A program made the position numbers and the translations under genes. A DNA stretch of 64,000 nt from NCBI RefSeq assembly GCF_000723465.1, contig NZ_HF545616.1, forward strand, positions 2,046,001-2,110,000. Reading direction: 5' to 3'. Each line of letters begins with the position of its first letter. The first letter of the stretch is position 1. Origin of the DNA: Ruminococcus bicirculans (ex Wegman et al. 2014). Its GTDB lineage: Bacteria; Bacillota; Clostridia; Oscillospirales; Ruminococcaceae. Of this stretch, positions 8,700-60,956 are shown piece by piece. The notes under the pieces were generated by a model. It saw only the letters and a program-made list of their open reading frames with translations, searched no databases and was not told the DNA's origin.

Positions 8700-8868
8700 C
8701 ATGATGATGAAAACATCATCAAAATCATCACCGACAAGCTGTTAGTGACAATTTTCATGTTGCTTTTTTCATCGATCCGCTACTTATATACTTAAAATAC
8801 TTTAATTACTTATATATACTTAGGGAGGTCGCAAATGGCGTATCTACGCTGTTTCAAGCGTTTAAAAA
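8700..8868. other. AT-rich stretch beside the iterons, probable unwinding region
   Basis: The region between the parA leader and the iterons holds a small hairpin (GATGATG/CATCATC, 8703-8718) and, at about 8780-8822, a very AT-rich run with repeated TACTTATATA-like units. In iteron replicons an AT-rich element next to the iterons is where strands open. No DnaA box of good quality was seen here. Confidence 0.45.
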
Positions 8869-9186
8869 CCACTTTTTCCTAACGTAGCGACCACTTTTTC
8901 CTAACCAAAAGCCACCTTTTCCTAACGAAAAACCACCTTTTCCTAACCAATCGACCACTTTTCCCTAACTTTCAACACACTTTCATGTTTTAGAGCCACT
9001 TTTTCCTAACTTTCAACAATTCAGAGCAGAAAAACCTGATTTTTGTCTGCGTAAAGACCACTTTCCCCTAACGAAAAGCCACCTTTTCCTAACCAATCGA
9101 CCACTTTTCCCTAACTTTCAACACACCTTCATGTTTTAGAACCACTTTTTCCTAACTTTAAAAACCACCTCGTTAGGAAAAGGTGG
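8869..9186. repeat. Iteron array: replication origin of the Rep_3 replicon
   Basis: Ten direct copies of a 15-base unit CCAC[C/T]TTT[T/C]CCTAAC (allowing one further C/T change) start at 8869, 8891, 8912, 8933, 8955, 8996, 9058, 9079, 9101 and 9142. Many neighbouring copies are spaced 21-22 bases, i.e. two helical turns. A block of ~85 bases (about 8909-8995) is repeated at 9076-9140. An eleventh, inverted copy (9172-9186) lies within the terminator of the rep gene. Direct iterons beside a Rep_3 initiator are the classic binding sites for initiation and copy-number control. Confidence 0.85.
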
Positions 9187-9191
9187 TTTTT
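9160..9191 (-). terminator. Terminator of the rep gene containing an inverted iteron
   Basis: Stem AAAAACCACCT/AGGTGGTTTTT with loop CGTTAGGAAA; on the minus strand the stem ends in a T run. The loop and 3' arm include an inverted iteron, so the Rep protein could bind its own terminator. The last codon of rep overlaps the stem. Confidence 0.65.
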
Positions 9192-10002
9192 AAATCGGGG
9201 CGTCAGGTTCATCCCAACTTTCATTCCATTCTATGCTTGTTTTGATGATATTATAGTAATCATCACACGGCAGAAAACATTCGCTTCTGCCGAGAAGAAT
9301 GAAAGAAACGCCCTCAACTGCTCTGCCGTTCTTGTTATACTTGGCTGTCAACGTGAACTCTGATGTATCAGAGTTGTTTATTTCAAAAATCGCTTTGCCA
9401 ATGCACTTCTCCTTGAATTGGCTGAATTTTAAAAGCTTATCCTCACAGCCCATAAGCTGTCTGAGCTGTTCAATAGAGTACTCAAACTTGTGCCTATTTC
9501 TTGAAAAGAAACTTGCCTTGAAGTCGGAGAGCAAAATCTCATAGAGCCTGATAGCATATACAGATTTGAAATTCAGGATACTGCCTATCTCGTATTGCGT
9601 ATAAAAGCCTTTTTGTTGCAAAACAAAAGGCTTAACATCATCGTTAAGCCTGATAGTAAGTATTCCATTGTTGCATGAGCAGGAAGAAATGAGGTTGATT
9701 TTTAGCCAACTTTCACGATTTCCAATACCACCCGTATTGATTTTAATGAACGCTTGCATAAGCTTATCCGTAAGCTCATTAATATCACCATACATGGACT
9801 TAGGTTTCATTCCAAGATACTTCGCAAGGTCCGTTATCTTACAAGTATATGTTTCCAGACCCTTGTCTGAGGGCTTTATCTGCGAAATGAGCAAGCGAAA
9901 AATCTTATGCTGCCACAGTGTCAACACATCCTGCTTGCCCTTGACCATGCTGTTTGACATGACTATTTTGAAGTCCTTATTCAAAACCAACGCATTGCCC
10001 AT
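9190..10002 (-). CDS. Rep_3-type plasmid replication initiator
   Basis: A 270-residue protein. The N-terminal winged-helix region contains LTLWQHKIFRLLISQIKPSD (about 26-45), a hallmark of initiator proteins of the Rep_3 (RepB/RepA) superfamily; the second winged helix follows at about 130-230 (SVYAIRLYEILLSDFK, then YSIEQLRQLMGCEDKL). It should bind the iterons lying immediately downstream and start replication. ATG at 10002 has GGGGGAG in front. It is transcribed toward the iterons and parA. It sits only 48 bases from the tRNA-like attachment site at 10050, marking the edge of the inserted element. Confidence 0.88.
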   Translation of the reverse strand: MGNALVLNKDFKIVMSNSMVKGKQDVLTLWQHKIFRLLISQIKPSDKGLETYTCKITDLAKYLGMKPKSMYGDINELTDKLMQAFIKINTGGIGNRESWLKINLISSCSCNNGILTIRLNDDVKPFVLQQKGFYTQYEIGSILNFKSVYAIRLYEILLSDFKASFFSRNRHKFEYSIEQLRQLMGCEDKLLKFSQFKEKCIGKAIFEINNSDTSEFTLTAKYNKNGRAVEGVSFILLGRSECFLPCDDYYNIIKTSIEWNESWDEPDAPI

Positions 10003-22947: not shown

Positions 22948-23553
22948 TTAGTCCTCAAACATCTTTCTTGCAGCGAAGCATATCATCTCGGCAGCGAGAT
23001 CAGTGCCGTATTCGCTTACGTCGATCATAAGATGTTTGTTGTCACGGTCACCACGATTTTTGCCTGTGACGTATTTATAATAGTTGTGGCGCTGGCGGTC
23101 AACACGTTTTATGAGCTTGTCAGCCTCCGGCCATGAAAGGTCATAAGTTTCACACATATGCTTTATCCTTGCTTCCAAAGGCGCATAAAGAAAAACGTTC
23201 ATGTGGTTTGGATATTCTCTGAGAACATAGTCTGCACATCTGCCAAAGAATATGGCGGATACACGCTTGTTTGCAAGATCTCTGATGATATCCACCTGCG
23301 CTTTTACAGCCTTGTCGGAATAAAACTGAGTTGATGAGCCGTAACCGAATGACTTCAGCAGGCGGTCAGCGTTCTTGTCAAGCATTTCCTCACTGTCAAG
23401 AAACGAGTCACGGCTTATGCCTGCACGCTCCGCCGCCATATCTACAAGGTCCTTGTCATAAAACTCCACGCCAAGCTCAGCCGCCGCCTTTCTTGCGACC
23501 TCTCTTGCGTTGCAGCCGAACTCACGGCTTATGGTAATAATAAACTTTTTCAT
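22948..23553 (-). CDS. Cytidylate-kinase-like protein
   Basis: A 201-residue protein of the Cytidylate_kin2 family, common in Clostridia. N-terminus IITISREFGCNAREVARKAA stands where the P-loop should be; family members usually have GSGGRE, here GCNARE, so nucleotide binding may differ. Conserved later segments are FYDKDLVDMAAER, IFFGRCADYVL and RVDRQRHNYYKYVTG. Phosphorylation of a nucleotide is the family presumption; activity is unproven. Last gene of the operon, 3 bases after the channel gene. Confidence 0.75.
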   Translation of the reverse strand: MKKFIITISREFGCNAREVARKAAAELGVEFYDKDLVDMAAERAGISRDSFLDSEEMLDKNADRLLKSFGYGSSTQFYSDKAVKAQVDIIRDLANKRVSAIFFGRCADYVLREYPNHMNVFLYAPLEARIKHMCETYDLSWPEADKLIKRVDRQRHNYYKYVTGKNRGDRDNKHLMIDVSEYGTDLAAEMICFAARKMFED

Positions 23554-23556
23554 AGT

Positions 23557-24267
23557 CTATGCTCCTTTTTTATTTATGAGATTTTCTTTCGTGGCGGCTA
23601 TCCTCCGCTCCTGTCTGGCTTTTATCTGGATCTTCGGCAAATTCCAACCGAATTTCACCGACATGAGCCTTAGGGAAAACGTCACCACAAGGCTCACCAT
23701 GCAGGCAGGCATGAACGACATCATGCCATAGCAAAGCAGAAAAGCCGCTGCACCTGTGGCAGAAGCGCAGGCATAAATGTTGCCCACAAATATCTCAGGC
23801 TTCTTGTTCACGAAAATATCCCTGAGAACTCCGCCCCCAACGCCCGTTATAACTCCCGAAAACACAAGCAAAAAAGTGTTGTCTGACACGCCGCTCCTCA
23901 TTGCCGCTGTTATACCTGTAACAGTGAAAATGCCAAGCCCTATAGTATCGAGCATGAGCATTGCAGTATCATAAAGCTTCAACGCCTTGCCCCCCAGGTC
24001 GCCTTTTACAGCCAAGGCTGCAAACACAAGCACCGATATCAAAGCCGCCGCACTCATTGCAAGGGGGTCACGAAACGCCGCCACAGGGTGACTTCCGATG
24101 ACGATATCACGCATTATCCCACCGCCCACAGCCGTTGTCACTCCTATTATTATAACGCCGAAAAGGTCAAAACGTCTTTTTATCGCTGTCAGCGCACCGC
24201 TTGCCGCAAACGCCGCAGTGCCGATAAGTTCAAGTATCGTAACGATAACATCAAAACGCTCATTCAT
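23557..24267 (-). CDS. TRIC/UPF0126 family membrane channel protein
   Basis: A 236-residue protein with seven predicted helices in two repeats. Each repeat has the family glycine motif (VGGGIMRDIVIG near 47-58 and VGGGVLRDIFVNKKP near 140-154). Bacterial members are trimeric cation channels or YicG-like small-molecule (glycine) transporters. Its ATG overlaps the stop of the PAS-AAA+ regulator, so amino-acid-linked transport in this operon is a reasonable guess. Confidence 0.85.
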   Translation of the reverse strand: MNERFDVIVTILELIGTAAFAASGALTAIKRRFDLFGVIIIGVTTAVGGGIMRDIVIGSHPVAAFRDPLAMSAAALISVLVFAALAVKGDLGGKALKLYDTAMLMLDTIGLGIFTVTGITAAMRSGVSDNTFLLVFSGVITGVGGGVLRDIFVNKKPEIFVGNIYACASATGAAAFLLCYGMMSFMPACMVSLVVTFSLRLMSVKFGWNLPKIQIKARQERRIAATKENLINKKGA

Positions 24268-25538
24268 TCAACGTCCCTGCCTGCATATTTGTGTATCTTC
24301 CGCACCGCCGTCGCCTGACTTATGCCAAGCTTCTGAGCCACAGCCACAGATGTTCTGTATTTTTCATAGGCTCTCATCACAAGTCCGCTTTCGTAAAATT
24401 CAAGCATATCCTTTAGGGAAGCATTCTGTGCAAATACCTCAGACGAACCGCCTGTTATCCTGTCAGGCAAGTCGAAAACGTCCACCTTTTTCTTCTCGGT
24501 AGTAAGAACGATACGCTCGATAGTCCTATGCACCTCGTCGATATTTTCTTTCCAATCATATCCCAACAAACAGCCCATGGCACGAGGTGTGAACTCAACG
24601 CTCCGTGAGTATTTCTTGTTTGCCGAGCCGAGATAATAGTCGATAAAGCTTTTAAGATCCTCCGCACGCTCGCCAAGAGAATACATCTGTACCTGATAAG
24701 GCTCGAACTCGCTTATAAACTCCTCCGACAGCTTGTCAGCACCTTTAAGCTCCTCCACCGAATGTTCAGAAAGCCCCACAGGCACAATGCCTGCTTTTGC
24801 GCATTTTTCAAGGACTGCCCTTTGAAGCCTAGGCGACAGCCTGTCTATATGCTTTATTATCACAGCGTAAATGCCCGAAAGCGGCGATATCATCGACCCC
24901 TCTCCAAGAAGCTCCTTTTCTATGACTTCTTCCCCGACAGGTGCGCAGTCATAGGTGTAAAGCGTTCCTTTTTTGCCGTATATAGTGGAAGCAAGATAGC
25001 TTTTGCCGCTTCCTGTGGGACCATAGATGTAACACGGACAGCCTGCGTCACAGAAAACTCCTGCAAGCCGCCTTGCGTCTCTTGAACGGCTGCTTTGGGC
25101 GATATAACGCTGTCCACCGTCACGTCCTGTCATAAGCTCTATTTCATCAAGAAGCTTTTTGTTCTGATACTGCAAAACATTGTAACGCTCCCTCAGGTCG
25201 TCAAAGCCTGTTATCTCCCAAGAGGAATAGCTTATTATCATCTCAAGCTCTCCGTCCTTGAATACCGGTATTCCCGTGACGAAAGTTTCGTCATTGTCAA
25301 CGCCTTTTTGCACCGTTGTGACACGCTTGTGGCTTTCAAAAACCATTTGCGTCACGCAAGGGGAAAACATCTTCATCATTTCCTCTGAGCCTGCGAATTT
25401 ACCTATTATGTCAGAGCCTTTTACGCTTCTGCCGCTGAGATAGGAGTTTGAAACAAATCTGAACACTCCGCTGCTGTCGGCAATAGTCACTCCTGGGTGG
25501 ATACTTTCGAGAATGTGCCCTAGCTGTTCATAATCCAT
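24264..25538 (-). CDS. PAS-AAA+-HTH regulator lacking the sigma-54 contact motif
   Basis: A 424-residue TyrR/RocR-like protein. PAS-type sensor at about 1-110 (ILESIHPGVTIADSSGVFRFVSN), coiled linker, AAA+ domain at about 150-370 with intact Walker A GPTGSGKS (173-180). The GAFTGA loop that contacts sigma-54 is absent, the region after ELLGEG is shortened, and the Walker B site is VIIKHID rather than a D-E pair. C-terminal Fis/HTH_8 helix-turn-helix (VAVAQKLGISQATAVRKIHK, about 396-418). By analogy with TyrR it should act through ordinary sigma-70-type promoters. It is encoded inside the amino-acid transport operon and is a candidate binder of the three dyads at 29890-30076. Confidence 0.8.
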   Translation of the reverse strand: MDYEQLGHILESIHPGVTIADSSGVFRFVSNSYLSGRSVKGSDIIGKFAGSEEMMKMFSPCVTQMVFESHKRVTTVQKGVDNDETFVTGIPVFKDGELEMIISYSSWEITGFDDLRERYNVLQYQNKKLLDEIELMTGRDGGQRYIAQSSRSRDARRLAGVFCDAGCPCYIYGPTGSGKSYLASTIYGKKGTLYTYDCAPVGEEVIEKELLGEGSMISPLSGIYAVIIKHIDRLSPRLQRAVLEKCAKAGIVPVGLSEHSVEELKGADKLSEEFISEFEPYQVQMYSLGERAEDLKSFIDYYLGSANKKYSRSVEFTPRAMGCLLGYDWKENIDEVHRTIERIVLTTEKKKVDVFDLPDRITGGSSEVFAQNASLKDMLEFYESGLVMRAYEKYRTSVAVAQKLGISQATAVRKIHKYAGRDVE

Positions 25539-25569: not shown

Positions 25570-26349
25570 TTACACATTAAGTATCTTTGAGAAGAACTGC
25601 TTTGCACGGTCGCTCTTAGGGTGCTTGAACACTTCCTCAGGGGTGCCGTCCTCGATAACATAGCCGCCGTCCATAAAGCAGACTCTGTTTGCCACCTCTG
25701 CCGCAAAGCCCATTTCGTGTGTAACAACTATCATTGTCATTCCTGCCTGAGCCAGGTCTTTCATAACGTTCAGAACTTCGCCAACGAACTCAGGGTCAAG
25801 GGCGGAAGTCGGCTCGTCAAAGAGTATGACCTCAGGCTCCATTGCAAGGGTCCTCGCAATAGCCACACGCTGCTGCTGACCGCCTGAAAGCTGAGTAGGA
25901 TAAGCGTCTGCCTTGCCGTCCATTCCAACTCTCGCAAGAAGCTCCATGGCTTTCTTCTTTGTTTCTTCCTTGTTAGCCTTTTTAACCTGAACAGGACACT
26001 CCATGACGTTTTCAAGCACTGTTTTGTGCGGCCAAAGGTTGAACTGCTGGAACACCATTCCAACGTTCTTTCTTATGACCTTTGCAGCCTTTTCGTTAAG
26101 TTTTTTGTTGTGCTTGTCCTCGTCGATGCCCTTCAGGGAAACTCCGCCTATATCTATCTCGCCTGATGTCAGCTCCTCGAGATAGTTCAGGCATCTGAGA
26201 AAAGTGCTTTTGCCAGAGCCGCTGGGGCCGATAACGCTTACCACCTCGCCCTTGTAAATATCCATATCTATTTTTCTGAGGACCTTAAGCTCCCCGTAAT
26301 TCTTTGCCAGATCGTGAACCGATATAACAGGCTTTCTGCTTTCAGCCAT
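25570..26349 (-). CDS. Polar amino-acid ABC transporter ATP-binding protein
   Basis: A 259-residue GlnQ/HisP-type ATPase: Walker [25 protein letters not shown], signature [15 protein letters not shown], Walker [21 protein letters not shown], and switch H in VVTHEMGFA. Works with the two permeases and binding lipoprotein encoded directly upstream to import an amino acid. Confidence 0.93.
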
Positions 26350-26371
26350 TGTATTTTACACTCCTTTTTCG

Positions 26372-27031
26372 TCAGATAGCAACACGGTTGTTGTGCTTTT
26401 CTATACATCTTGATGCGAACTCGATAACAAGGTTCAGCGCCCAGTAAAGAACGCCTGCACAGATATAAACTATCAGAGGACTGAAAGTTATACCGATAGC
26501 CTCTTTTGTCATCATTGTCATTTCTGCAACTGTGATGATAGAAAGGATAGATGAGTCCTTAACAGTCTGAACAAACTGTCCTGTCAGTGACGGAACGATT
26601 ATTTTCAAAGTCTGCGGGAAAATTATTCTCACCATTGTTTTAAATCTTGACATTCCCATTGCATATGAAGCTTCAAACTGTCCCTTTGGGATAGCGCTGA
26701 CGCCGCTTTCAAGGATAACTGCGGTATAAGCCGCTGTGTACATTCCAAGAATTATAACGCCTGTTGAGAACGCTGAAACGTTCAGACCAAGAGCAGGGAG
26801 TCCGTAATACGCAAGATATACCTGCACCATAAAAGGGGTGCATCTGAATATCTTTATAAACGCCCTTGCGATAAGCTCAACAGCCTTGTTTTTTGAAAGG
26901 CACATATAGCCTACCGCCGAGCCTAACACCATTGCAATAAGGATAGACAGCACCGATATTGCCGCCGTTGTTCCAAGACCCTGCAAAAGCAGCGGAAGCG
27001 CTATTTCCGCAACGTGCATAAATTCGTTCAT
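26372..27031 (-). CDS. Polar amino-acid ABC transporter permease (second)
   Basis: A 219-residue His/Glu/Gln/Arg-type permease with five to six helices; the EAA loop reads EASYAMGMSRFKTMVRIIFPQ (about 130-150). It starts 14 bases after the first permease stop. A heterodimeric channel with the 27046-27708 product is expected. Confidence 0.9.
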   Translation of the reverse strand: MNEFMHVAEIALPLLLQGLGTTAAISVLSILIAMVLGSAVGYMCLSKNKAVELIARAFIKIFRCTPFMVQVYLAYYGLPALGLNVSAFSTGVIILGMYTAAYTAVILESGVSAIPKGQFEASYAMGMSRFKTMVRIIFPQTLKIIVPSLTGQFVQTVKDSSILSIITVAEMTMMTKEAIGITFSPLIVYICAGVLYWALNLVIEFASRCIEKHNNRVAI

Positions 27032-27045
27032 ATATCTGCGCCTCC

Positions 27046-27708
27046 TTATCTTCTTTCAAGTCTTTTCTTCTGAAGCTTTACAAGTTCTTCAAGTCCTGCG
27101 CAGATAACAAAATACATAACTGCGATAGCAATATAGAAAGGCAGGTTTATGTATGTCTGCGTTACAAGACGCTGAGCCGTTCTTGTAAGCTCTACGATTG
27201 CCAACACAGAAAGCATCGGCGACACCTTTATAACGTTTATGAACTCGCTTGTTAGCTGCGGCAAAGCTACCTTGAATACCTGCGGGAAAACTATCCTCAT
27301 TAGTATCTTTGGCTCGCTCATACCCAAGGCTCTGGCCGCCTCCGTCTGACCTTTTGGCACAGCCGTAAGTCCGCCACGGATTATTTCTGCGATAAATCCG
27401 CCGCTGTTAAGGCTAAGAGCGATTATGCCTGACGCCAGGTTTGAAAGGTTCAGACCCATTACTGCAAGCGCCTGATATATAATGTATATCTGCACCAGCA
27501 CAGGCGTGCCACGGACAAAGCTTATATAAACTGCGACTATCTTTTTCAGTATTCTTGAAGGAAGCGAGTCGCCGCCCATTCTCATCACCGAAAGCAGCAT
27601 ACCAACGCAAAGCGCTATAAGTATCGCTGCAACGGATACGAATACTGTATAGCCAAGACCTTTCAGCAGCAGGTCTTTATAATGCCATACTATGTTGAAA
27701 TTCTCCAT
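27046..27708 (-). CDS. Polar amino-acid ABC transporter permease (first)
   Basis: A 220-residue permease from ATG at 27708 (MENFNIVWHYKDLLLKGLGY), the usual family start. EAA loop EAARALGMSEPKILMRIVFPQ. A strong AAAGGAGG lies at 27744-27752, but a perfect 8-bp hairpin (27718-27743) separates it from the ATG; a second GGAG inside the hairpin lies 12 bases before the ATG. A longer frame to 27756 reads through the hairpin and has no ribosome site of its own. Confidence 0.88.
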   Translation of the reverse strand: MENFNIVWHYKDLLLKGLGYTVFVSVAAILIALCVGMLLSVMRMGGDSLPSRILKKIVAVYISFVRGTPVLVQIYIIYQALAVMGLNLSNLASGIIALSLNSGGFIAEIIRGGLTAVPKGQTEAARALGMSEPKILMRIVFPQVFKVALPQLTSEFINVIKVSPMLSVLAIVELTRTAQRLVTQTYINLPFYIAIAVMYFVICAGLEELVKLQKKRLERR

Positions 27709-27717
27709 TGATATATA

Positions 27718-27743
27718 ATGCTCCGCCGTTTGCGACGGAGCAT
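27718..27743 (-). promoter_or_regulatory. Hairpin between the binding-protein gene and permease gene
   Basis: ATGCTCCG/CGGAGCAT with a 10-base loop, directly between a consensus ribosome site and the permease start. Such intercistronic hairpins often protect the upstream binding-protein message or lower translation of the membrane components. Here it could also bring the Shine-Dalgarno sequence close to the ATG. Confidence 0.55.
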
Positions 27744-27765
27744 TTCCTCCTTTCAAAGGTGCTTT

Positions 27766-28656
27766 TTACTCGGCAGGGATATAATCGCTCTCAGGCAGGT
27801 CAACGGCTTCACCAAACCATTTCTTCTGGAGCTCTGCAAGAGTTCCGTCCTCTTTGAACTTGTGTATCTCAGAGTTGATATAGTCAGAAAGCTCTGTGTC
27901 TTCCTTACGAACAGCCCATGATACCCAAGTGTCTGTGCCGACCATTTCAGCCTTGCCTGAATCGTCAGCCACTATCTCATAATCGTCAGGATTCCTCATT
28001 ACAACTGCGGCGCAGCTTGCATAGTTCTGAGCAACAAGGTCTATCTTGCCGTTCTTAAGCTCTGCAAAAGCCTCAGGGAATGAGTCGTATTTGAGCAGTT
28101 CAGCATAGCCGTCCTTGCCCTCTGACTTTAGCTTCTCGTTGAATTTCTTTGTATCGTCCTCATTGTAGCAAGAAGTCTGTGTGCCGACCTTTTTGCCTGA
28201 CATATCTTCGATAGACTTGATGCTGTCATCGCCCTTTCTCTTTACGAAAACTGTAGTTCCGTTCTGGATAGGATAAGTCATCGTGTACTTGCCTGCACGT
28301 TCAGCAGTTACGCCGAGTGTTGCTCCAACAACGTCATATTTCTTTGCTTCAAGTCCTGCAAGTATTCCTTGGAACGGCAGGTCGATATAATCAAGCTCTA
28401 CCCCCAGATCGTCGCAGATCTTAGCGAACAGATCTGCGTTGTAGCCTATGATCTTATCGCCGTCCATGTATTCAAAAGGCTCATAAGCGGCTTCTGTCGC
28501 AACTGTGAGCTTACCGTTTTCCTTGATCTGATCCAGTGTGAGCGGACCTGTGTTCTTGCTGCTTCCGCAGGCTGTAAGACATCCTGCCGCAAGTACTGAA
28601 GCCACTGCCACTGCACAAACTTTTCTTAACATTCCAAATCTTCTTCCGCTTTTCAT
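27766..28656 (-). CDS. Amino-acid ABC transporter substrate-binding lipoprotein
   Basis: A 296-residue SBP_bac_3 protein from ATG at 28656 (MKSGRRFGMLRKVCAVAVAS). Signal peptide with lipobox LTAC (Cys ~29), then GKLTVATEAAYEPFEYMDGDKIIGYNADL-type family start (split here: LTVATEAAYEPFEYMD and IIGYNADLF), ligand segment DVVGATLGVTAERAG. It binds a polar amino acid outside the membrane. The preceding 130 bases form a folded region (28687-28780). Confidence 0.9.
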   Translation of the reverse strand: MKSGRRFGMLRKVCAVAVASVLAAGCLTACGSSKNTGPLTLDQIKENGKLTVATEAAYEPFEYMDGDKIIGYNADLFAKICDDLGVELDYIDLPFQGILAGLEAKKYDVVGATLGVTAERAGKYTMTYPIQNGTTVFVKRKGDDSIKSIEDMSGKKVGTQTSCYNEDDTKKFNEKLKSEGKDGYAELLKYDSFPEAFAELKNGKIDLVAQNYASCAAVVMRNPDDYEIVADDSGKAEMVGTDTWVSWAVRKEDTELSDYINSEIHKFKEDGTLAELQKKWFGEAVDLPESDYIPAE

Positions 28657-28686
28657 AACTGATTCCAACCTTTCACTTACTTTTCT

Positions 28687-28780
28687 AAATAATTCGGAGC
28701 GCTGACAAGCCAGACACCCTAGTGCCGCTGTCAACGCTCCGTTGCGTTTGATATTATATTTATTGGAAGGCGAATTATTT
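28687..28780 (-). ncRNA. Candidate structured RNA between ureohydrolase and binding-protein genes
   Basis: On the minus strand AAATAATTCG (28771-28780) pairs with CGAATTATTT (28687-28696), closing a domain that contains a 13-bp hairpin with one mismatch (28695-28707 with 28729-28741; CGGAGCG arms, loop containing CACTAGGGTGTCTGGC). There is no T run after it, so a simple terminator is unlikely. It lies 31 bases upstream of the binding-protein ATG. It may be an mRNA processing element or a metabolite-sensing leader; I could not match a known riboswitch class with confidence. Confidence 0.4.
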
Positions 28781-28788
28781 TTCTATCT

Positions 28789-29751
28789 TTATTTTCTCTT
28801 GCCGATCTTCTTCTGATAAGCAAGGATAGACATGAACTCAAAAATGATATTTGCGCCCATATAAGCTGTTATCTCTGAGTGGTCATATGGAGGAGCAACT
28901 TCTACTACATCAAAGCCTGTGAAGTTCAAATCTTTCAGTGCTCTTATATATTGAAGTGTTTCAAAGGAAGTAAATCCGCCCACTTCAGGAGTACCTGTAC
29001 CTGGTGCATAAGCCGGGTCAACAAAGTCGATATCGAATGTAAGGAACACCTTATTGTCGCCAACCTTTTCCTTGATGACCTTGAGAAGATCTTCAGGAGA
29101 ATATGTGTGGAGCTTGTCACCTGGGATAACCGTGAAGCCAAGGTCTGCGGCGATCTTGAAATCGTCAGGATCGTAAAGAGAACCTCTCATGCCGATCTGA
29201 ACCGACTTCTCAGGATCAATAAGACCTTCCTCCATTGCTCTTCTGAATGGTGTGCCGTGATTGTATTTCTGACCGAAAACCGTATCGCACAGGTCAAGGT
29301 GTGAATCGAAATGCACAAGGCTTACCTTTCCATGCTTCTTTGCGATAGCTCTGAGTTCGCCAAGGGTGATAGCGTGGTCGCCGCCAATGCTTATTGGAAC
29401 TGCACCGCATTCAAGAACACCGTCCAAGGTCTGCTCGATAGCCGCATATGTTTCATGGATATAGTCAGGAATTACAGGAACGTCGCCAAGGTCTGCGCCC
29501 TTGAGTGAATCCATAATGTTGACGCCCATTGCAACATTGTTAGGCTTTATCATTGCCGAGATGTTTCTTACACCGTTAGGACCAAATCTTGCGCCTGCTC
29601 TGAAAGAAGCGGCGGTATCGAACGGTATACCAACGATAGCGAAATCCAATCCCTCTGCTGAGGTCGCGTGAGGAAGCCTCATGAAATTACCCATATTACA
29701 AAAACGAGGAGAGCCTGAGGCACTCGGTGGCTGACAATTGTTGTTGATCAT
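28789..29751 (-). CDS. Agmatinase/guanidinobutyrase-type ureohydrolase
   Basis: A 320-residue ureohydrolase with complete metal motifs: GGDHA (123-127), FDSHLDLCD (148-156) and FDIDFVDPAYAPGTGTP (from 239). The loop after the second motif reads YNHGTPFRRA, the form seen in guanidinobutyrase, guanidinopropionase and related enzymes rather than the HGTMF of classic agmatinase. It releases urea from a guanidino substrate. AAAGGAAAG precedes the ATG and a near-consensus promoter lies at 29835-29863. First gene of an operon with an amino-acid importer; the urea formed could be used by the urease transcribed divergently. Confidence 0.88.
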   Translation of the reverse strand: MINNNCQPPSASGSPRFCNMGNFMRLPHATSAEGLDFAIVGIPFDTAASFRAGARFGPNGVRNISAMIKPNNVAMGVNIMDSLKGADLGDVPVIPDYIHETYAAIEQTLDGVLECGAVPISIGGDHAITLGELRAIAKKHGKVSLVHFDSHLDLCDTVFGQKYNHGTPFRRAMEEGLIDPEKSVQIGMRGSLYDPDDFKIAADLGFTVIPGDKLHTYSPEDLLKVIKEKVGDNKVFLTFDIDFVDPAYAPGTGTPEVGGFTSFETLQYIRALKDLNFTGFDVVEVAPPYDHSEITAYMGANIIFEFMSILAYQKKIGKRK

Positions 29752-29834
29752 TTGAGGTCACTTTCCTTTCAAAATCACTGAGAAACATATCCGCATGACC
29801 GTTCAAGTCATTTCTGAATTGCTCTATGTGCAGA

Positions 29835-29863
29835 ATTATATCACCATTCCTGCAAGTTGTCAA
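29835..29863 (-). promoter_or_regulatory. Promoter of the ureohydrolase/amino-acid transport operon
   Basis: Minus strand TTGACA, 17 bases, TATAAT: full consensus. Predicted start near 29828, giving a leader of ~77 bases. Confidence 0.85.
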
Positions 29864-29889
29864 GAGCTAATTTTCAATTTTTCTGAAAA

Positions 29890-30076
29890 TTATTCACTTT
29901 GGAATAAGTTTTGTTATCACTCATATAGCGCATTTACGCCATTTCGTCCATATCAAAGTCACAACTATTCATTTTTGAATAGTTTCTTTGTACAAATCTA
30001 CAAATGACAATAATGCAACATTCAGGTGTCAGACTTTCATTTTGTTCATATCTATTTTTTATTCAAAGCTGAATAA
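29890..30076. promoter_or_regulatory. Three 18-bp dyads TTATTC-N6-GAATAA in the divergent region
   Basis: Copies are TTATTCACTTTGGAATAA (29890-29907), CTATTCATTTTTGAATAG (29965-29982) and TTATTCAAAGCTGAATAA (30059-30076). All have the same 6-base spacer. The outer two are centred at about -70 relative to the predicted start of the leftward operon and about -68 relative to that of the urease operon, typical of activator sites. The architecture equals that of TyrR boxes, and a TyrR-like regulator is encoded in the leftward operon. Binding protein is inferred. Confidence 0.65.
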
Positions 30077-30100
30077 AATAAGAATTTTTCATTAACACTA

Positions 30101-30129
30101 TTGCCAAATAAAAAGCTCTGTGCTATACT
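30101..30129 (+). promoter_or_regulatory. Urease operon promoter
   Basis: TTGCCA, 17-base spacer, TATACT; predicted start near 30136. The transcript would at once enter the terminator at 30146-30201. Confidence 0.75.
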
Positions 30130-30145
30130 GATAATCAAAGCAATG

Positions 30146-30201
30146 ACGCTCTTATAACCGATACGGCAATGCCTGTCGGTTTATAAGGGCGTTGTTTTTT
30201 T
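30146..30201 (+). terminator. Leader terminator (attenuator) of the urease operon
   Basis: Arms ACGCTCTTATAA-CCGA and TCGG-TTTATAAGGGCGT form a long stem capped by GGC-AAT-GCC, followed by seven T residues, between the promoter and the first gene (ATG 30251). A terminator here implies that read-through is regulated, for example by an antitermination protein of the ANTAR type known for nitrogen genes in Firmicutes, or by an RNA-binding ligand. The regulator is not visible in the window. Confidence 0.75.
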
Positions 30202-30250
30202 ATTATCACTATGTTAAACTCAGAAAACAATTTTGAAAGGAAGTTTTATT

Positions 30251-30661
30251 ATGGCTTGTTTTTTAGTACCAGCAACAGAAGCGATCGTTACAACTATTGT
30301 GGCAAAGGCAGTAAAGTCTCACGAGGCAAAGGCAGAGGAGCAGACAAAGGTCAAAGCTCTTTCGGAGGACAAGCTTCCTCTTTCTAAAAAGATAACAAGG
30401 CTCTCAGGCTTTCTGTGGGGCGGCTCAGGACTTTTGGCATTTGAGCATCTGTGGCATGGCGAGATATCTCCGTTCTTCCCATTCCTGACAGCGGCTAACG
30501 ACCCTTCGGAAATGGCAGTAGCATTCCACGAAATGGCGACTGTCGGAACATCAATGGCTGTTCTTGTGACAGCGGTATGGGCTGTGATGACTGTGGTGTC
30601 TGACAAGATACTGAAACGTAAGCCAAAAGAGACTGCAAAGCTGGGCGGTGACGCCGTATGA
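30251..30661 (+). CDS. Small membrane protein at the head of the urease operon
   Basis: A 136-residue protein from ATG at 30251 (GAAAGGAAG upstream). Likely helices at about 2-22, 52-74 and 98-120, with a basic middle loop (KAVKSHEAKAEEQTK). Conserved-looking acidic/His residues sit in and after helix 2 (FEHLWHGEISPFFPF) and before helix 3 (FHEMATVG). Its stop overlaps the next start (ATGA). I do not recognise the family; in this place it may carry urea, ammonium or nickel, with its partner giving a six-helix assembly. Position is the only evidence. Confidence 0.7.
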   Translation: MACFLVPATEAIVTTIVAKAVKSHEAKAEEQTKVKALSEDKLPLSKKITRLSGFLWGGSGLLAFEHLWHGEISPFFPFLTAANDPSEMAVAFHEMATVGTSMAVLVTAVWAVMTVVSDKILKRKPKETAKLGGDAV

Positions 30662-30975
30662 CGCTTCTTATCACACTCATAGCAGCCGTTATCATTACCA
30701 TAGTATGGTACACATCACCAAAAGCCAGAAAGCTTAAAGTGGGGCTGATGTGCTATATGTACTGGGGCGCATCTATAATGTGGCTCGTGGACGCACTTTT
30801 TGAATACAAAGAGCAGGGCGCAGGATATTTCACCCCTGCCACCGCAGACATGATAAACGACAGCTTTTTAGGAATCTGCGTTGTTGCACTCGGCACCGTC
30901 GTATGGCTCGGCACTATGCTCATAAGCGACCCTGAGGGAGTAGTAAGAAAAGCCCTTACAGAGAAAAAGCAGTAG
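30658..30975 (+). CDS. Second small membrane protein of the urease operon
   Basis: A 105-residue protein with three helices (about 1-19, 28-50, 69-92) and a charged C-terminus. Translationally coupled to the preceding gene by ATGA overlap and followed after 33 bases by the fused ureAB. No recognised family; probably a partner of the 136-residue protein. Confidence 0.7.
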   Translation: MTLLITLIAAVIITIVWYTSPKARKLKVGLMCYMYWGASIMWLVDALFEYKEQGAGYFTPATADMINDSFLGICVVALGTVVWLGTMLISDPEGVVRKALTEKKQ

Positions 30976-31008: not shown

Positions 31009-31689
31009 ATGCGACTTGTTCCAAGAGAGCAGGATAAGCTTATGCTCCATTATGCGGGCATGCTTGCCCGTGACCGAAAGGCACAGGGATTAAAGCTAAA
31101 CTACCCTGAAGCTGTGGCATACATAAGCATGGAAGTAATGGAAAAAGCAAGAGCAGGAGCGTCAGCCGCTGAACTTATGCAATACGGCACAAAGCTTCTT
31201 ACTGCTGATGACGTTATGGACGGCGTTCCTGAAATGATACGCGAAATACAAATAGAATCCACAATGCCCGACGGCACAAAGCTTGTGACAGTACACAACC
31301 CTATCAAGGGTGCAAGCAAGCTTCACCCAGGGGAATTTATCGTTGAGGAAGGCACTGTCAAGCTCAACGAGGGAACAGAAAGCATTGAGCTTACAGTTTC
31401 AAACACAGGGGACAGACCTATCCAGACAGGCTCCCACTTCCACTTTTTTGAGGTAAACAAGGCTTTGGAGTTTGACCGCAAGGCGGCTTATGGTATGCGA
31501 CTTGATATTCCCGCAGGCACAGCGGTAAGATTTGAGCCGGGAGAGAAAAAGACCGTCCGTCTTATACCTATCGGCGGCGACCGCATAGGCTATGGTCTGA
31601 ATGGTCTTGTAAACGGAAAAATGGACGACGAAAACATCAAGCAGGCAGCCTTTGAAAAGGCTAAAAAGCTTGGCTTCAAGGGGGTGTAG
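31009..31689 (+). CDS. ureAB: Fused urease gamma and beta subunits
   Basis: A 226-residue fusion. Residues 1-100 are the gamma subunit ([17 protein letters not shown], then [13 protein letters not shown] and [20 protein letters not shown]). From ~103 the beta subunit begins ([50 protein letters not shown]). Most bacteria have separate ureA and ureB; the fusion is known from Helicobacter. AGGAGGAATAATA precedes the ATG. Forms the urease trimer with UreC. Confidence 0.95.
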
Positions 31690-31692
31690 GAA

Positions 31693-33405
31693 ATGATCGA
31701 AATATCGAGAAAAGCTTACTGCGATATGTATGGCCCGACAGTTGGCGACAGGGTGCGCTTAGGCGACACTTCTCTTATTGCAGAAGTGGAAAAAGATTTG
31801 ACAGTTCATGGCGATGAAGCAAAGTTCGGTGGAGGAAAATCTCTCCGTGACGGCATGGGGCAATCCTGCAAAGCCACTGACAAGGAGTGCCTTGACACTG
31901 TTATCACAAACGCTCTTATCATCGACAGCACAGGCATCATAAAGGCTGACGTTGGCATAAAGGACGGCAGGATAGCAGGAATAGGCAAAGCAGGCAACCC
32001 TGACATCATGAATGGCGTTGACAAAAACATGATAATAGGCGCTTCCACGGAAGCTATCGCAGGCGAGGGACTTATCCTCACCGCTGGCGGACTTGACACG
32101 CACATTCATTTTATCTCTCCAACTCAGGTGAGAACAGCCCTTTACAGCGGAATCACCACCATGATAGGCGGTGGTACAGGTCCTGCCGACGGCACCAATG
32201 CCACCACCTGTACACCTGGCGAGTTCAATATCCACAGAATGTTGGAAGCCTCAGAAGACCTGCCAATGAATTTCGGCTATCTTTGCAAGGGAAATTCAAG
32301 CGACATCACAACTCTTGAGGAGCAGATAAAGGCAGGCTGTATAGGCTTGAAGATACACGAGGACTGGGGCTCTACCCCTGACGTTATCGACCACGCACTT
32401 ACTGTTGCGGATATGTATGACGTTCAGGCGGCTATCCACACCGACACTCTTAACGAGGGCGGATTTGTTGAAGATACCGTCAATGCTTTCAAGGGCAGGA
32501 CTATCCACACTTATCACACAGAGGGTGCAGGCGGCGGACACGCTCCTGACATTATCAGAGCGGCGGCGTTCCCGAATGTTCTCCCTTCCTCAACGAACCC
32601 TACAATGCCTTACACCGCAAACACTCTTGACGAACATCTTGATATGCTCATGGTGTGTCATCACCTTGACAAAAACGTACCGGAGGACATTGCTTTTGCG
32701 GATTCAAGGATACGTCCTGAAACTATTGCCGCAGAGGACGTTTTGCACGATATGGGAATATTCTCAATGATGAGTTCCGACTCTCAGGCAATGGGACGTG
32801 TAGGCGAAGTTATCACACGAACATGGCAGACCGCTGACAAAATGAAGAAACAGCGTGGCGCACTCCCCGAGGACAGCGAGCGAAACGACAATTTCAGAAT
32901 AAAACGCTACATTTCAAAATACACTATCAACCCTGCTATAACCCACGGCGTATCAGAATATGTGGGCTCAGTGGAAGTTGGCAAGGTGGCAGACCTTGTT
33001 CTTTGGAATCCTGCATTTTTCGGTGCAAAGCCTGACATGATAATAAAGGGCGGATTTATTTTCGCATCAAAAATGGGCGACGCAAACGCTTCTATCCCTA
33101 CCCCTCAGCCTGTGTGTTACACAGAAATGTTCGGTGGTCACGGGCTTGCCCTTTCAAGCACCTGTATCACGTTCGTATCAAAATACGCCTACGAGGACGG
33201 CATAAAAGAGAAGCTTTGTCTTAAAAGGCAGGTGCTTCCTGTGAAAAACTGCCGAAACATCTCAAAGGCTGATATGGTATACAACAACGTCTGCGGTGAT
33301 ATAAGAGTAGACCCTGAGACCTACACTGTCACAGTTGACGGCGAAGTTATTACCTGCGAGCCTTTTGACGAGCTTGCATTGGCACAGCGTTACTTTATGT
33401 TCTAA
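31693..33405 (+). CDS. ureC: Urease alpha (catalytic) subunit
   Basis: A 570-residue nickel enzyme hydrolysing urea to ammonia and carbamate. All active-site residues are visible: HIH at 137-139, carbamylated Lys220 in GLKIHEDWG, His222, His249 and His275 ([12 protein letters not shown]), the flap CHH at 322-324, and Asp363 in SSDSQ. Full family length. It lies 3 bases after ureAB. Confidence 0.97.
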
Positions 33406-33420
33406 AGCGAGGAAACAAAA

Positions 33421-33909
33421 ATGATAGCAGAAAAAATATTAGGCAATCTTTCTGAAAGCACCCCCTCTGTAGAAGTAGACACAGTTGAGCTTGATTGGTT
33501 TGAAGCCGAGAAAAAGCGCATAAGAAAAACCACCGCAGGAGGACGTGACATAGGCATTGCCATTGACGAAAACCTAAAGGACGGGGATATCATCTATCTT
33601 GACGATAAGCTTTGCGTAGCAGTGAAGCTCACAAGATGTCCTCTTATCAAGATAAACGTTCACACTATGCAGGAAATGGGCAGGCTTTGCTTTGAGATAG
33701 GCAACAGGCATTTGTCACTTAAAATATCTGAAGACAACGTGCTTATCCCACATGACGAGCCTACAGAAAAGCACCTGAAAAACCTCGGCTTTGAGTGCGA
33801 GAACATCATAGGCAGATTTGACGATTTTATCGTCTGCAAAGCTCACGGACACTCACACAGCCACTCCCACGAGCATGGGGAACATCATCACCACGAACAT
33901 TCACACTAA
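33421..33909 (+). CDS. ureE: Urease accessory nickel chaperone
   Basis: A 162-residue UreE: N-terminal domain with RKTTAGGRDIGIAID, C-terminal metal-binding domain, and a histidine-rich tail from residue ~142 (HGHSHSHSHEHGEHHHHEHS). The tail binds several nickel ions and delivers them for UreC activation. It follows ureC by 15 bases. Confidence 0.95.
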   Translation: MIAEKILGNLSESTPSVEVDTVELDWFEAEKKRIRKTTAGGRDIGIAIDENLKDGDIIYLDDKLCVAVKLTRCPLIKINVHTMQEMGRLCFEIGNRHLSLKISEDNVLIPHDEPTEKHLKNLGFECENIIGRFDDFIVCKAHGHSHSHSHEHGEHHHHEHSH

Positions 33910-33925
33910 ACGGAGCTGATAAAAA

Positions 33926-34600
33926 ATGACCGATACCGCAGGACTTATGCACATTCTGCAAATATGCGACAGCCTTTTCCCAGTGGGTGCGTTCACGCTT
34001 TCAAACGGGCTTGAAACCTACGTTCAGCATGATATCATCACTTCGCCAAAAGGGCTTGAAGAATATCTCCATTCTTACATCTCAGTGCTGCCCTACAATG
34101 AGCTTGGTGCGGCGGCAGCGGCATACAATGCAGACGAAAAGGAACTTTGCCGTCTTGATGAGATATACTCTGCGGTGAAAACACCATTTGAGATACGAAG
34201 CGGCTCAGAAAAGGTCACAAGGCGTTTTTTCAAAATATGCAACAATGATCGGGAAAGCTTCACAGGGCTTTATAAAAGCCTGACTGAGCAAGGCATATGC
34301 AAAGGTCATCAGTGCATCGCCTATGGACTTTATATGCGTGACAATGGCATCGGGCTTTCAGAGGGGCTTGCGGTATACGGCTATTCCATATGCTCCGCCA
34401 TAGTCACAAACTGCGTGAAGCTTGTACCTCTTAGTCAGCTTGCAGGGCAGAAAATTCTCGGAGAGAGCTTTGAGCTTATATCCTCCGCTTCAGAAGAAGC
34501 CCTTTTCACTGATATAAACGATATCGGCATAAGCGGCGCAGGCTTTGACCTGCGTGCAATGCAGCACGAGCGGCTGTATTCAAGACAGTATATGTCATAA
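33926..34600 (+). CDS. ureF: Urease accessory protein UreF
   Basis: A 224-residue all-helical protein beginning LMHILQICDSLFPVGAFTLSNGLET, the standard UreF signature (split: LQICDSLFPVGAFTLS). It works with UreD and UreG in the nickel-insertion complex and gates UreG GTPase. Length is typical. Confidence 0.93.
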   Translation: MTDTAGLMHILQICDSLFPVGAFTLSNGLETYVQHDIITSPKGLEEYLHSYISVLPYNELGAAAAAYNADEKELCRLDEIYSAVKTPFEIRSGSEKVTRRFFKICNNDRESFTGLYKSLTEQGICKGHQCIAYGLYMRDNGIGLSEGLAVYGYSICSAIVTNCVKLVPLSQLAGQKILGESFELISSASEEALFTDINDIGISGAGFDLRAMQHERLYSRQYMS

Positions 34601-34636
34601 GCTATGATTTATATAATATAATAAGGAGTACCAAAA

Positions 34637-35248
34637 ATGAGCTATGTAAAAATAGGCGTAGGCGGACCTGTGGGATCGGGAAAAACCGCACTTATCGAAC
34701 GCCTTACAAGAGAAATGTCAAAAGAATATTCCATATGCGTTGTAACAAACGATATCTACACCAAAGAGGACGCAGAATTTCTTACAAAAAACTCATGCCT
34801 GCCTGCTGACAGGATAGTTGGTGTTGAAACAGGCGGCTGTCCTCACACTGCCATAAGAGAAGACTGCTCAATGAACCTGGAAGCCGTTGACGAAATGGTG
34901 AAAAAGCACCCTGACACGCAGATAGTTTTCATTGAAAGCGGCGGCGACAATCTTTCCGCCACGTTCTCCCCTGACCTTGCAGACGCTTCTATCTATGTTA
35001 TCGACGTTGCACAGGGTGAAAAGATACCAAGAAAAGGCGGCCCTGGCGTGACACGTTCCGACCTGCTTGTTATCAACAAGACAGACCTTGCGCCACTTGT
35101 TGGAGCTTCCCTTGAAGTAATGGCTTCCGACTCAAAGCGCATGAGGGGCGACAGACCGTTTCTTTTCACAAATCTCATGAGCCGTGAGGGCGTTTCTCAG
35201 GTCATAGACTGGATAAAAAAATCAGTGCTTTTTGAGGATCTGAAATGA
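34637..35248 (+). CDS. ureG: Urease accessory GTPase UreG
   Basis: A 203-residue GTPase: P-loop [13 protein letters not shown], metal motif [15 protein letters not shown] (Cys-Pro-His nickel site), switch [17 protein letters not shown] and base specificity NKTDLAP. Preceded by AAGGAG. Couples GTP hydrolysis to nickel delivery. Confidence 0.96.
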
Positions 35249-36012
35249 ACGGCAGACTAAGCCTGTCAACAGCCTTTGACGGACAAAAAAACGTTACTGA
35301 GGACTTATATTTCGCTCCCCCTTTCAAGGTGTATTCACCATTTTATGACCAAAAAGGCTGGGCGAAATATATCTCAATGTGTGGCTCAGCAGGAGTATTG
35401 GCAGGTGACAAAAACGAGATAAAGCTTTTTGTGGGGGAAAACTGCAAGGTCATTTTCACAGATCAGGGCTATCAAAAGCTTTTCAACACAAACGGCGGCG
35501 TATCAAAACAGAGCATAAAGCTTGTTGTGCGCAAAAACGCAAGGCTTTGCTATATGCCCCACCCTATTATGACTTTCACAGGCTGTGAGCATATCTCTAT
35601 GGGCAAGGTGAACATCACAGAAAGCTCTGAGCTTATTTTCTCTGAGATATACTGCTGTGGCAGAACTGCAATGGGGGAGGAGTTTGGCTTGAAGCGCTTT
35701 CGCTCACGCACCGAGATAGCAATTGACGGCAGGGCGGATTTTATCGACAACACTCTTATCGACCCCGCCGCACTGCCCATACGGCAAAAAGGCTTTTTCG
35801 AGAGCTTCACCCACACGGGATTTATGTATATCTACACCCCTGACAAGACAATGCTGGAAAGCATTTACCAAGCCGACTACACAGGCGACCCTGACAGCGC
35901 ACAGCTTTGTGCCACTCACACGGAACGTGGCATAGCCATAAGAGCCTTGGGACGTTCGGGAGAAGAGATTTTTGACGCTTTTCAGAACATTGCAGAAAAA
36001 ATTCGCACATAA
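35245..36012 (+). CDS. ureD: Urease accessory protein UreD/UreH
   Basis: A 255-residue protein overlapping the ureG stop by 4 bases. Typical segments are [39 protein letters not shown] and [18 protein letters not shown], which match UreD. It is the scaffold that docks UreF-UreG onto apo-urease. Last gene of the operon, followed by a strong terminator. Confidence 0.9.
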
Positions 36013-60527: not shown

Positions 60528-60956
60528 TTAAATCGCCTCCTTGTGCAAATTAAAAAAGTTTAGGGGGCAGCTTTCTTTCACTCAAGCCTCAGTCAATTGC
60601 GTAAATGATCGAGGCATGCCGATCGCTTACGCAATTGACAGGTTCGAGCTTTAAAAGCTTTCTGTTGATACCCGTTTACACTCTGCCGTGTGTTCCCTGC
60701 CGTTCTCATAAAAAATTCCGAAACCCACAAGGCTTTCGGACTCAGAAAACAGCGCACACAGCATCACACATACTCACGCTAAAGCAGACCTTGTCCGCTA
60801 TCGCAAGAAGCATAAGCACATACTGTGTTCGGTATTAACAGTCGCCCGGTTTAAAATCGGACATACTCCACGGAAATTACCTGACCAACTGTCAGCAACC
60901 TTCCGCTTCATCGCATATCATCATCGTGTACATTAAATACACTGTGCAGTCACGCA
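60528..60956 (-). promoter_or_regulatory. Long structured leader of the rpsJ operon
   Basis: No gene is seen between the promoter and rpsJ. The leader contains a terminator-like hairpin (60711-60740) and a strong hairpin at 60592-60639 whose 13-bp outer arms GTCAATTGCGTAA/TTACGCAATTGAC enclose a further GATCG/CGATC pairing. The combination suggests regulated read-through, possibly by a ribosomal protein as in other S10 leaders. Confidence 0.55.
60711..60740 (-). terminator. Terminator inside the rpsJ leader (attenuator)
   Basis: Minus strand TCCGAAAGCC-TTGT-GGGTTTCGGA (one internal mismatch) followed by ATTTTTT. It lies ~215 bases after the predicted start and ~185 bases before rpsJ. Confidence 0.65.

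Follow-up and report, generated by a model that had tools for sequence, protein, structure and literature searches.

A conserved dyad array between divergent ureohydrolase and urease operons of Ruminococcus bicirculans as candidate operator of a TyrR-like regulator

Introduction

Several described regulatory systems come close to the locus analysed here. TyrR boxes have the form TGTAAA-N6-TTTACA with an invariant G-N14-C, and at akr-ipdC, where more than one box lies in a divergent intergenic region, TyrR both represses and activates (PMC4374768). The TyrR-like enhancer-binding protein GcsR of Pseudomonas aeruginosa has three 18-bp palindromes before its target operon (PMC4894688). For 15 groups of clostridial enhancer-binding proteins, PrdR among them, TGT-N10-12-ACA sites have been reported, and the Clostridium agmatine regulon of AguQ has aguDA, aguBC and aguQT as its targets (PMC6615313). 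At the RNA level, the target element of ANTAR proteins reads AGCAANGRRGCUY, with a hexaloop carrying A at position 1 and G at position 4 (PMC3369931).

Here, we analyse a stretch of 64,000 nucleotides of Ruminococcus bicirculans (hereafter the window; contig NZ_HF545616.1, positions 2,046,001 to 2,110,000), in which an original prediction had proposed that three dyads are shared operators of divergent nitrogen operons. Among the matches listed by a literature search, which lay mostly outside subscription journals and preprints, nothing concerned this operator or locus.

Results

The dyads lie in an intergenic stretch of 481 bp (29752-30232). To its left, the minus strand carries an operon that begins at 29751 with an agmatinase-family ureohydrolase (28789-29751; family matches; 96% identical in genome G028 and 87% in locus L054), followed by an amino-acid-type ABC importer made up of a family 3 binding protein, two permeases and an ATPase (25570-28734; family matches, except that the permease at 27046-27756 was assigned by tblastn against its relatives alone), by the TyrR-like regulator (24264-25538) and, apparently in the same operon, by a Gly_transporter-type membrane protein and a cytidylate-kinase-like protein (22948-24267; family matches). 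The ureohydrolase scored over the cutoffs of agmatinase models, and its best solved relatives are a guanidinobutyrase and a guanidinopropionase. To the right, the plus strand carries the urease operon, the first ORF of which has its ATG at 30251. Two small ORFs (30251-30975), which matched no Pfam or NCBIfam family and precede ureAB in G014 and G028 also, are candidates for a urea channel or a urease-linked membrane pair. They are followed by urease itself, with a fused gamma-beta subunit (PF00547 and PF00699), the alpha subunit and accessory proteins E, F, G and D/H (31009-36012), in the same order as in G014 and G028; the accessory names were judged by eye from sequence and gene order, without a family search.

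The two operons together encode 16 proteins, each of which has a match in G028 (55-96% identical), in one collinear row running from agmatinase to urease. Since all 16 are collinear there and inter-ORF gaps are at most about 130 bp, a joint function of the two operons is supported. Both gene sets probably feed nitrogen, one by importing and splitting a urea-releasing compound and the opposite one through urease, and the chemistry suggests a single path in which a guanidino compound is imported, urea is released and ammonia is formed. Both the Gly_transporter-type and the kinase-like genes follow the regulator in G028, and the kinase-like one does so in L054 as well. The cytidylate-kinase-like protein (22948-23553) adjoins the regulator, as does its 67% identical L054 counterpart (L054:11293-11898), and a 33% identical kinase-like protein of G014 (L051:4786-5487) adjoins what by eye appears to be a urea-type ABC transporter.

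The motif TTATTC-N6-GAATAA had been reported to occur three times within 190 bases. Two copies are indeed exact, namely dyad 1 (29890-29907, TTATTC-ACTTTG-GAATAA) and dyad 3 (30059-30076, TTATTC-AAAGCT-GAATAA, with symmetry reaching 30057-30078), whereas the middle one, dyad 2 (29965-29982), reads CTATTC-ATTTTT-GAATAG, i.e. the copies are not identical. The two changes in dyad 2 form a symmetric pair that keeps the palindrome, and its symmetry reaches 29963-29984 (AACTATTC-N6-GAATAGTT). The exact form has no other copy in the window (shuffle mean 0), as had been stated, and neither has the core TATTC-N6-GAATA, which is common to all three dyads; with up to two mismatches allowed, the exact form gives 6 sites in the window against 4.74 by chance. 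Dinucleotide shuffles of the 481-bp region contained one core in 25 of 20,000 cases and more than one in 0 of 20,000, to be compared with the three observed. When any 5-bp arm with a free spacer of 3-12 was counted, provided that the same arm occurred at least three times, such arrays arose in 14 of 3,000 shuffles. Because of this look-elsewhere result, the array alone is notable, not overwhelming, and the case is carried by the comparative evidence given below.

The genome-wide motif scan for other targets that had been proposed yielded no clear regulon. Over the whole genome of 2,968,500 bp, the core was found 7 times, of which 3 are at the present locus, against 16 occurrences of the reversed-pattern control; three of the other four copies are inside ORFs and one is between ORFs. 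The two-mismatch scan of the whole genome gave 288 sites (control 313) and was uninformative. Core and control counts were 7 and 16 in the source genome (G000), 4 and 10 in G028, 14 and 9 in G023, 9 and 9 in G014, and 9 and 8 in G533, and the placing of copies against genes covered the four others of G000 and few of those in the remaining four genomes. A genome-wide dyad regulon was thus rejected. With the core at chance level across the genome, the operator looks local, which speaks against a global regulator.

The two best predictions of sigma-70-type promoters fall one to each operon, with starts set 7 bases after the -10. The promoter of the agmatinase-ABC-regulator operon (29835-29863, minus strand; TTGACA-17-TATAAT, 12/12) has its predicted start at about 29828, and that of the urease operon (30101-30129, plus strand; TTGCCA-17-TATACT, 10/12) at about 30136. 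Promoter-like sites over the whole intergenic region are near shuffle level (3 versus 2.2), and the minus promoter is conserved in G028, where 22 of its 29 bases match and both hexamers are kept. Relative to the predicted minus start, the centres of dyads 1, 2 and 3 fall at -70.5, -145.5 and -239.5; relative to the plus start, they fall at -237.5, -162.5 and -68.5. The outer copies therefore sit about 70 bases upstream of the two predicted starts, in agreement with the original prediction; the middle copy is between them but not half-way, its centre (29973.5) being about 9 bp off the midpoint. At 10.5 bp per helical turn, the centre spacings of 75, 94 and 169 bp correspond to approximately 7, 9 and 16 turns, and such near-whole-turn spacings are compatible with looping without proving it. 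As the three dyads are upstream of both predicted starts, they are in neither transcript and are thus not RNA hairpins of these.

Two further palindromic features were observed near the minus promoter. A weak dyad-like match (29804-29821, score 9.6) has its centre 15.5 bp beyond the predicted minus start on the downstream side, and in G028 another (L044:15663-15680, score 6.6) lies at the same distance; both are possibly weak operators. Between the -35 and dyad 1, at 29872-29887, lies the palindrome AATTTTTCTGAAAATT, which resembles the CodY consensus; by eye, none was seen in the upstream DNA of G028 and L054.

We compared the dyads with the operators of the described systems. With two palindromic arms, a 6-bp spacer and 18 bp in total, they have the layout of TyrR boxes, and the proposed match in spacing holds for the N6 spacer. 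It does not extend to sequence: the arms here are YTATTC/GAATAR, the G-N14-C is absent, and no TGTAAA-N6-TTTACA box was found in 29700-30250 at up to 3 mismatches. The sites of GcsR have 7-bp arms and an N4 spacer (PMC4894688) and can be compared with TATTCA-N4-TGAATA here, which is perfect in dyads 2 and 3 and has one mismatch in dyad 1. GcsR works with RpoN and glycine; at the present locus, two divergent promoters flank the sites, and the genome yielded no sigma-54.

A TyrR-like protein had been predicted to be encoded in one of the operons, and the left-operon gene 24264-25538 (minus strand) does encode a protein of 424 residues with a C-terminal TyrR-type HTH (HTH_50, PF18024; 41.1 bits versus a cutoff of 27). 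AAA_lid_14 also scored over its cutoff, the match to Sigma54_activat was partial (residues 146-213 only), that to TIGR04381 was under the cutoff (22.1 bits versus 30) and that to the TyrR homologue 1g2h had an E of 0.0088. The best NCBIfam match was PrdR with 98.1 bits (cutoff 795), and TyrR (NF008085) scored 36.1 bits (cutoff 576); with both scores below their cutoffs, the regulator qualifies as neither. On inspection by eye, its AAA+ part appears degenerate: the Walker A motif reads GPTGSGKS, a GAFTGA is missing, and the place of the acidic Walker B residues DE is taken by VIIKHID. The N-terminus of TyrR consists of ACT and PAS and binds aromatic amino acids; in the present regulator, residues before 146 matched no Pfam family. 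Its predicted structure is poor (mean pLDDT 54.7 from three sequences, with residues 1-144 below 50), and the top Foldseek matches of this poor model were NtrX, ZraR, VpsR and NtrC1, with a query TM of about 0.3; given the quality of the model, these count for the AAA+/HTH part only.

The sigma-54 DNA-binding domain was found in none of five genomes (G000, G028, G014, G023 and G533; the own genome 99.95% complete, one of the five 87%), with 4 of 14 controls positive, and sigma-54 promoter logic was therefore rejected. Since no sigma-54 was found in its genome, the regulator probably works on sigma-70 promoters, and a sigma-70-working TyrR-like protein is, from its sequence, the best description that we can give. 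It shares with TyrR of Escherichia coli and Enterobacter the TyrR-type HTH, a sigma-54-activator-like centre combined with sigma-70 promoters, and N6 palindromes that occur more than once in a divergent intergenic region, and differs in arm sequence, in gene targets and in the weakness of the overall similarity scored above. To PrdR and other clostridial enhancer-binding proteins it is linked by its best NCBIfam match and by amino-acid and nitrogen catabolism; unlike it, these are sigma-54 activators, and the reported AguQ targets differ from the genes found here (PMC6615313).

Loci with the regulator were sought in the contigs of named genomes by two short peptide patterns, a procedure by which relatives can be missed. 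Three were obtained, in Ruminococcus sp. RUG12579 (L052, regulator 99% identical), Ruminococcus sp. RGIG8501 (L053, 76%; over 19,942 bases its DNA and that of the G028 contig are 100% identical) and an uncultured Eubacteriales (L054, 43%). Every regulator locus, i.e. 4 of 4 including the window and representing three lineages, has at least one exact core before agmatinase: three in L052, one in G028, and one together with a 1-mismatch copy in L054. Only three lineages are independent, as the window, L052 and G023 are close strains. Shuffles of the upstream region gave one exact core in 41 of 20,000 cases for G028 and in 4 of 20,000 for L054. The single G028 copy is exactly at -145.5 from the predicted start, which is the position of dyad 2, and is identical to it at 17 of 18 bases, while from the site to the -35 the two sequences match at 47 of 101 bases ungapped. 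No good dyad match was found near -70 in G028, so a site there is not required in every species. The two L054 copies are 74 bp apart (75 for dyads 1 and 2) and lie between two divergent agmatinase-family genes; an extra exact core is inside the second of these genes (4839), i.e. in coding sequence. In L054, agmatinase (87% identical) and the four ABC proteins (69-75%) stand in the same order as here, together with the regulator and the kinase-like protein; the Gly_transporter-type protein and the eight right-hand proteins were unmatched in the 21 kb searched. As no urease protein was matched in these 21 kb, it is the Ruminococcus loci that connect the dyads with urease.

Four regulator-less upstream regions of urease or agmatinase genes were also analysed, and the exact core was present in 0 of 4. 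In the urease locus of G014, no exact core occurs in 18 kb and the sole 1-mismatch core is far upstream, 8.9 kb from where the first ORF of the urease operon lies. Two agmatinase genes of G014 and one agmatinase-family cluster of G024 have no core upstream at up to one mismatch; their proteins being only 43-53% identical, these are weaker controls. G023 is the exception in the other direction, with all three dyads and no regulator either in its 16-kb stretch or among the matches listed. Its contig breaks within the binding-protein gene, at L050:6315, into DNA like the repeat at window 8902-9286, and L052, 99.97% identical to the G023 locus over 7.3 kb, runs on into the regulator operon; the absence in G023 is possibly a recent deletion or an assembly fault. 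In the window, 8864-9286 is an array of a 22-bp repeat (AAAAGACCACTTTTTCCTAACC), and it is to similar DNA that the broken binding-protein gene of G023 is joined.

Between the window and L050/L052, 13 positions vary in 29864-30100, none of them in the dyads (hypergeometric P 0.017-0.031), and the promoters and the urease leader are likewise free of differences, end-gap columns being uncounted. Wider searches for the regulator gave 11 matches at E <= 0.001 among 150 relatives, strong ones in G000 and G028 only and the next at 25% identity; 57 at E <= 1e-25 among 391 class-level genomes, all but that of G000 at 198 bits or less; and G533 alone at E <= 1e-60 among 295 relatives of G533. In the 391- and 295-genome searches the best 4-5 first-look candidates per genome were scored, so that relatives can be missed. 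Because relatives with the same neighbouring regulator gene also carry the dyads there, these are probably the landing sites of the regulator, and the 24264-25538 protein, named as binder by the original prediction, emerges as the likeliest one from its co-occurrence with the dyad in three lineages, G023 excepted. The proposal of operators shared by two divergent nitrogen operons is likewise supported, as is the -70 geometry at the predicted sigma-70-type promoters.

A second candidate regulatory element, not noticed in the original prediction, is apparent in the predicted urease leader. At the predicted 5' end of the transcript, an ANTAR-type hairpin, AGC-AAUGAC-GCU, with hexaloop A1 and G4 (30139-30150, plus strand), begins about 3 bases past the predicted plus start. 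It overlaps a strong terminator-like hairpin with a run of seven T (30142-30201, plus strand), and the two hairpins are mutually exclusive; folding of 30105-30215 gave -41.1 kcal/mol (z -7.7). Relative to AGCAANGRRGCUY there is one departure, C in place of the second R. The candidate for a second hairpin, CGGC-AAUGCCU-GUCG, has seven bases in its loop, as does a third candidate, the stem of which consists of 3 pairs; among five other leaders, four have no second hairpin, and in that of GSIII a variant with 3 pairs overlaps the first. The leader of G014 urease is of the same kind, with GGC for AGC, and so is that of the G028 gene divergent from agmatinase (a circularly permuted ATP-grasp). Rfam gave four matches in the window at E <= 1, none of them to an ANTAR-type element.

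One ANTAR protein scored over the cutoff in the genome (65.3 bits, cutoff 27.3), and its gene (L001:1105-1677) is downstream of a glutamine synthetase gene. The pattern AGCAANGNNGCT...TTTTT occurs at 4 distinct sites in the genome (control 0), namely before urease, at GSIII (GSIII_N; L103), at a Na/H exchanger (L099) and at the 3' end of a gene that by eye is serA-like (L100). The last is probably a plain terminator, and since the pattern thus also occurs where a gene ends, it does not by itself prove an ANTAR target. The resemblance to ANTAR antitermination by EutV and NasR consists in a hexaloop hairpin over a terminator, nitrogen-related targets and a genome with an ANTAR protein; the differences are that the canonical second hexaloop hairpin was not found and that the first starts so close to the predicted start. 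The ANTAR reading is therefore likely, though unsettled. The leader common to urease and GSIII suggests, at the level of sequence, an additional nitrogen-linked antitermination.

Discussion

Together, these results favour the reading that the dyads are operators of the operon-encoded TyrR-like protein, which would activate both operons; we hold this to be reasonably probable. A conserved local operator for such a regulator is probably real. What is observed at the dyads, i.e. the sites, their positions, their conservation and their co-occurrence with the regulator, could be accounted for by binding, activation and a signal in the following manner. The regulator would descend from sigma-54 enhancer-binding proteins and act on sigma-70 promoters, its N-terminal region presumably sensing a nitrogen signal or a substrate. 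Dimers would bind dyads 1 and 3, each about 70 bp upstream of a predicted start, and dyad 2 between them, possibly with contact or looping between sites. Bound regulator would then activate the import-and-ureohydrolase operon, including its own gene, and the urease operon, and by this coordinated activation urea from the ureohydrolase operon would be split by urease. At urease, there is probably a second switch, in which the ANTAR protein would let RNA polymerase pass the terminator when nitrogen is short.

Alternatively, the local regulator may bind the dyads and repress, or repress one operon and activate the other. TyrR offers a precedent at akr-ipdC (PMC4374768), and the weak sites just past the predicted minus start, in the window and in G028, would fit this reading. 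These, however, score far below (9.6 and 6.6) the six sites behind the dyad matrix (15.2-24.9), and no strong dyad overlaps a predicted promoter or start, all being upstream, in the position of an activator. We therefore regard repression as unlikely, while giving it some weight.

A different binder, i.e. a more global nitrogen or arginine regulator such as ArgR/AhrC, a CodY-like or a GlnR-like protein, seems improbable. The ARG-box palindrome is TGAAT-N4-ATTCA, and the dyad arms do contain ATTCA/TGAAT, as its half-sites do; in the dyads, however, the half-sites point the opposite way, and the intergenic region has no TGAAT-N4-ATTCA at up to one mismatch, so that the ARG box was rejected. The CodY-like palindrome beside dyad 1 and the dyads of G023, where no regulator was found, would fit a global regulator. 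Against it, no clear core regulon stands out from the reversed control in G000, G028, G014, G533 and G023, and the dyad tracks the local regulator gene across lineages. Finally, chance or structural palindromes in an A+T-rich spacer, with no binding protein, are very hard to credit, for although 14 of 3,000 shuffles reach three or more equal dyads of whatever arm and spacer, the same sequence recurs before the same gene in G028 and L054 (41 and 4 of 20,000 shuffles), at the exact -145.5 position in G028. The dyads are moreover unchanged between close strains, and they lie outside both predicted transcripts and are hence not RNA hairpins of these.

Returning to activation by the TyrR-like protein, we tentatively put forward a joint reading of the two layers, which as a whole we consider rather doubtful. 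An enhancer-binding-type protein may have survived the loss of sigma-54 and act at a distance on sigma-70 promoters, proximal copies of its site may have been added when urease came to lie divergently, and urease may have gained a single-hairpin ANTAR-type gate. In this joint reading, the sole strong site of G028, 145.5 bp upstream, would be too far away for ordinary polymerase contact without looping.

In bacteria of the rumen and the gut, urease sets the share of urea nitrogen that is turned into ammonia. With a putative operator at the DNA level and a leader at the RNA level, the locus presents a two-layer switch that can be tested and that would couple urease with the import and cleavage of urea-releasing guanidino compounds, and it is a test case for sigma-54 activators becoming sigma-70 regulators.

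Some other features of the window were recorded. No tRNA was found in it, and a PHROGs search returned one weak match, with no function assigned. An Rfam match to 5_ureB_sRNA (31843-32132, minus strand, 128 bits) runs antisense to the gene for the urease alpha subunit and is probably due to conservation of the coding sequence, not to an RNA gene. An S10-Clostridia ribosomal protein leader was matched at 60839-60920 on the minus strand (Rfam, 46.8 bits).
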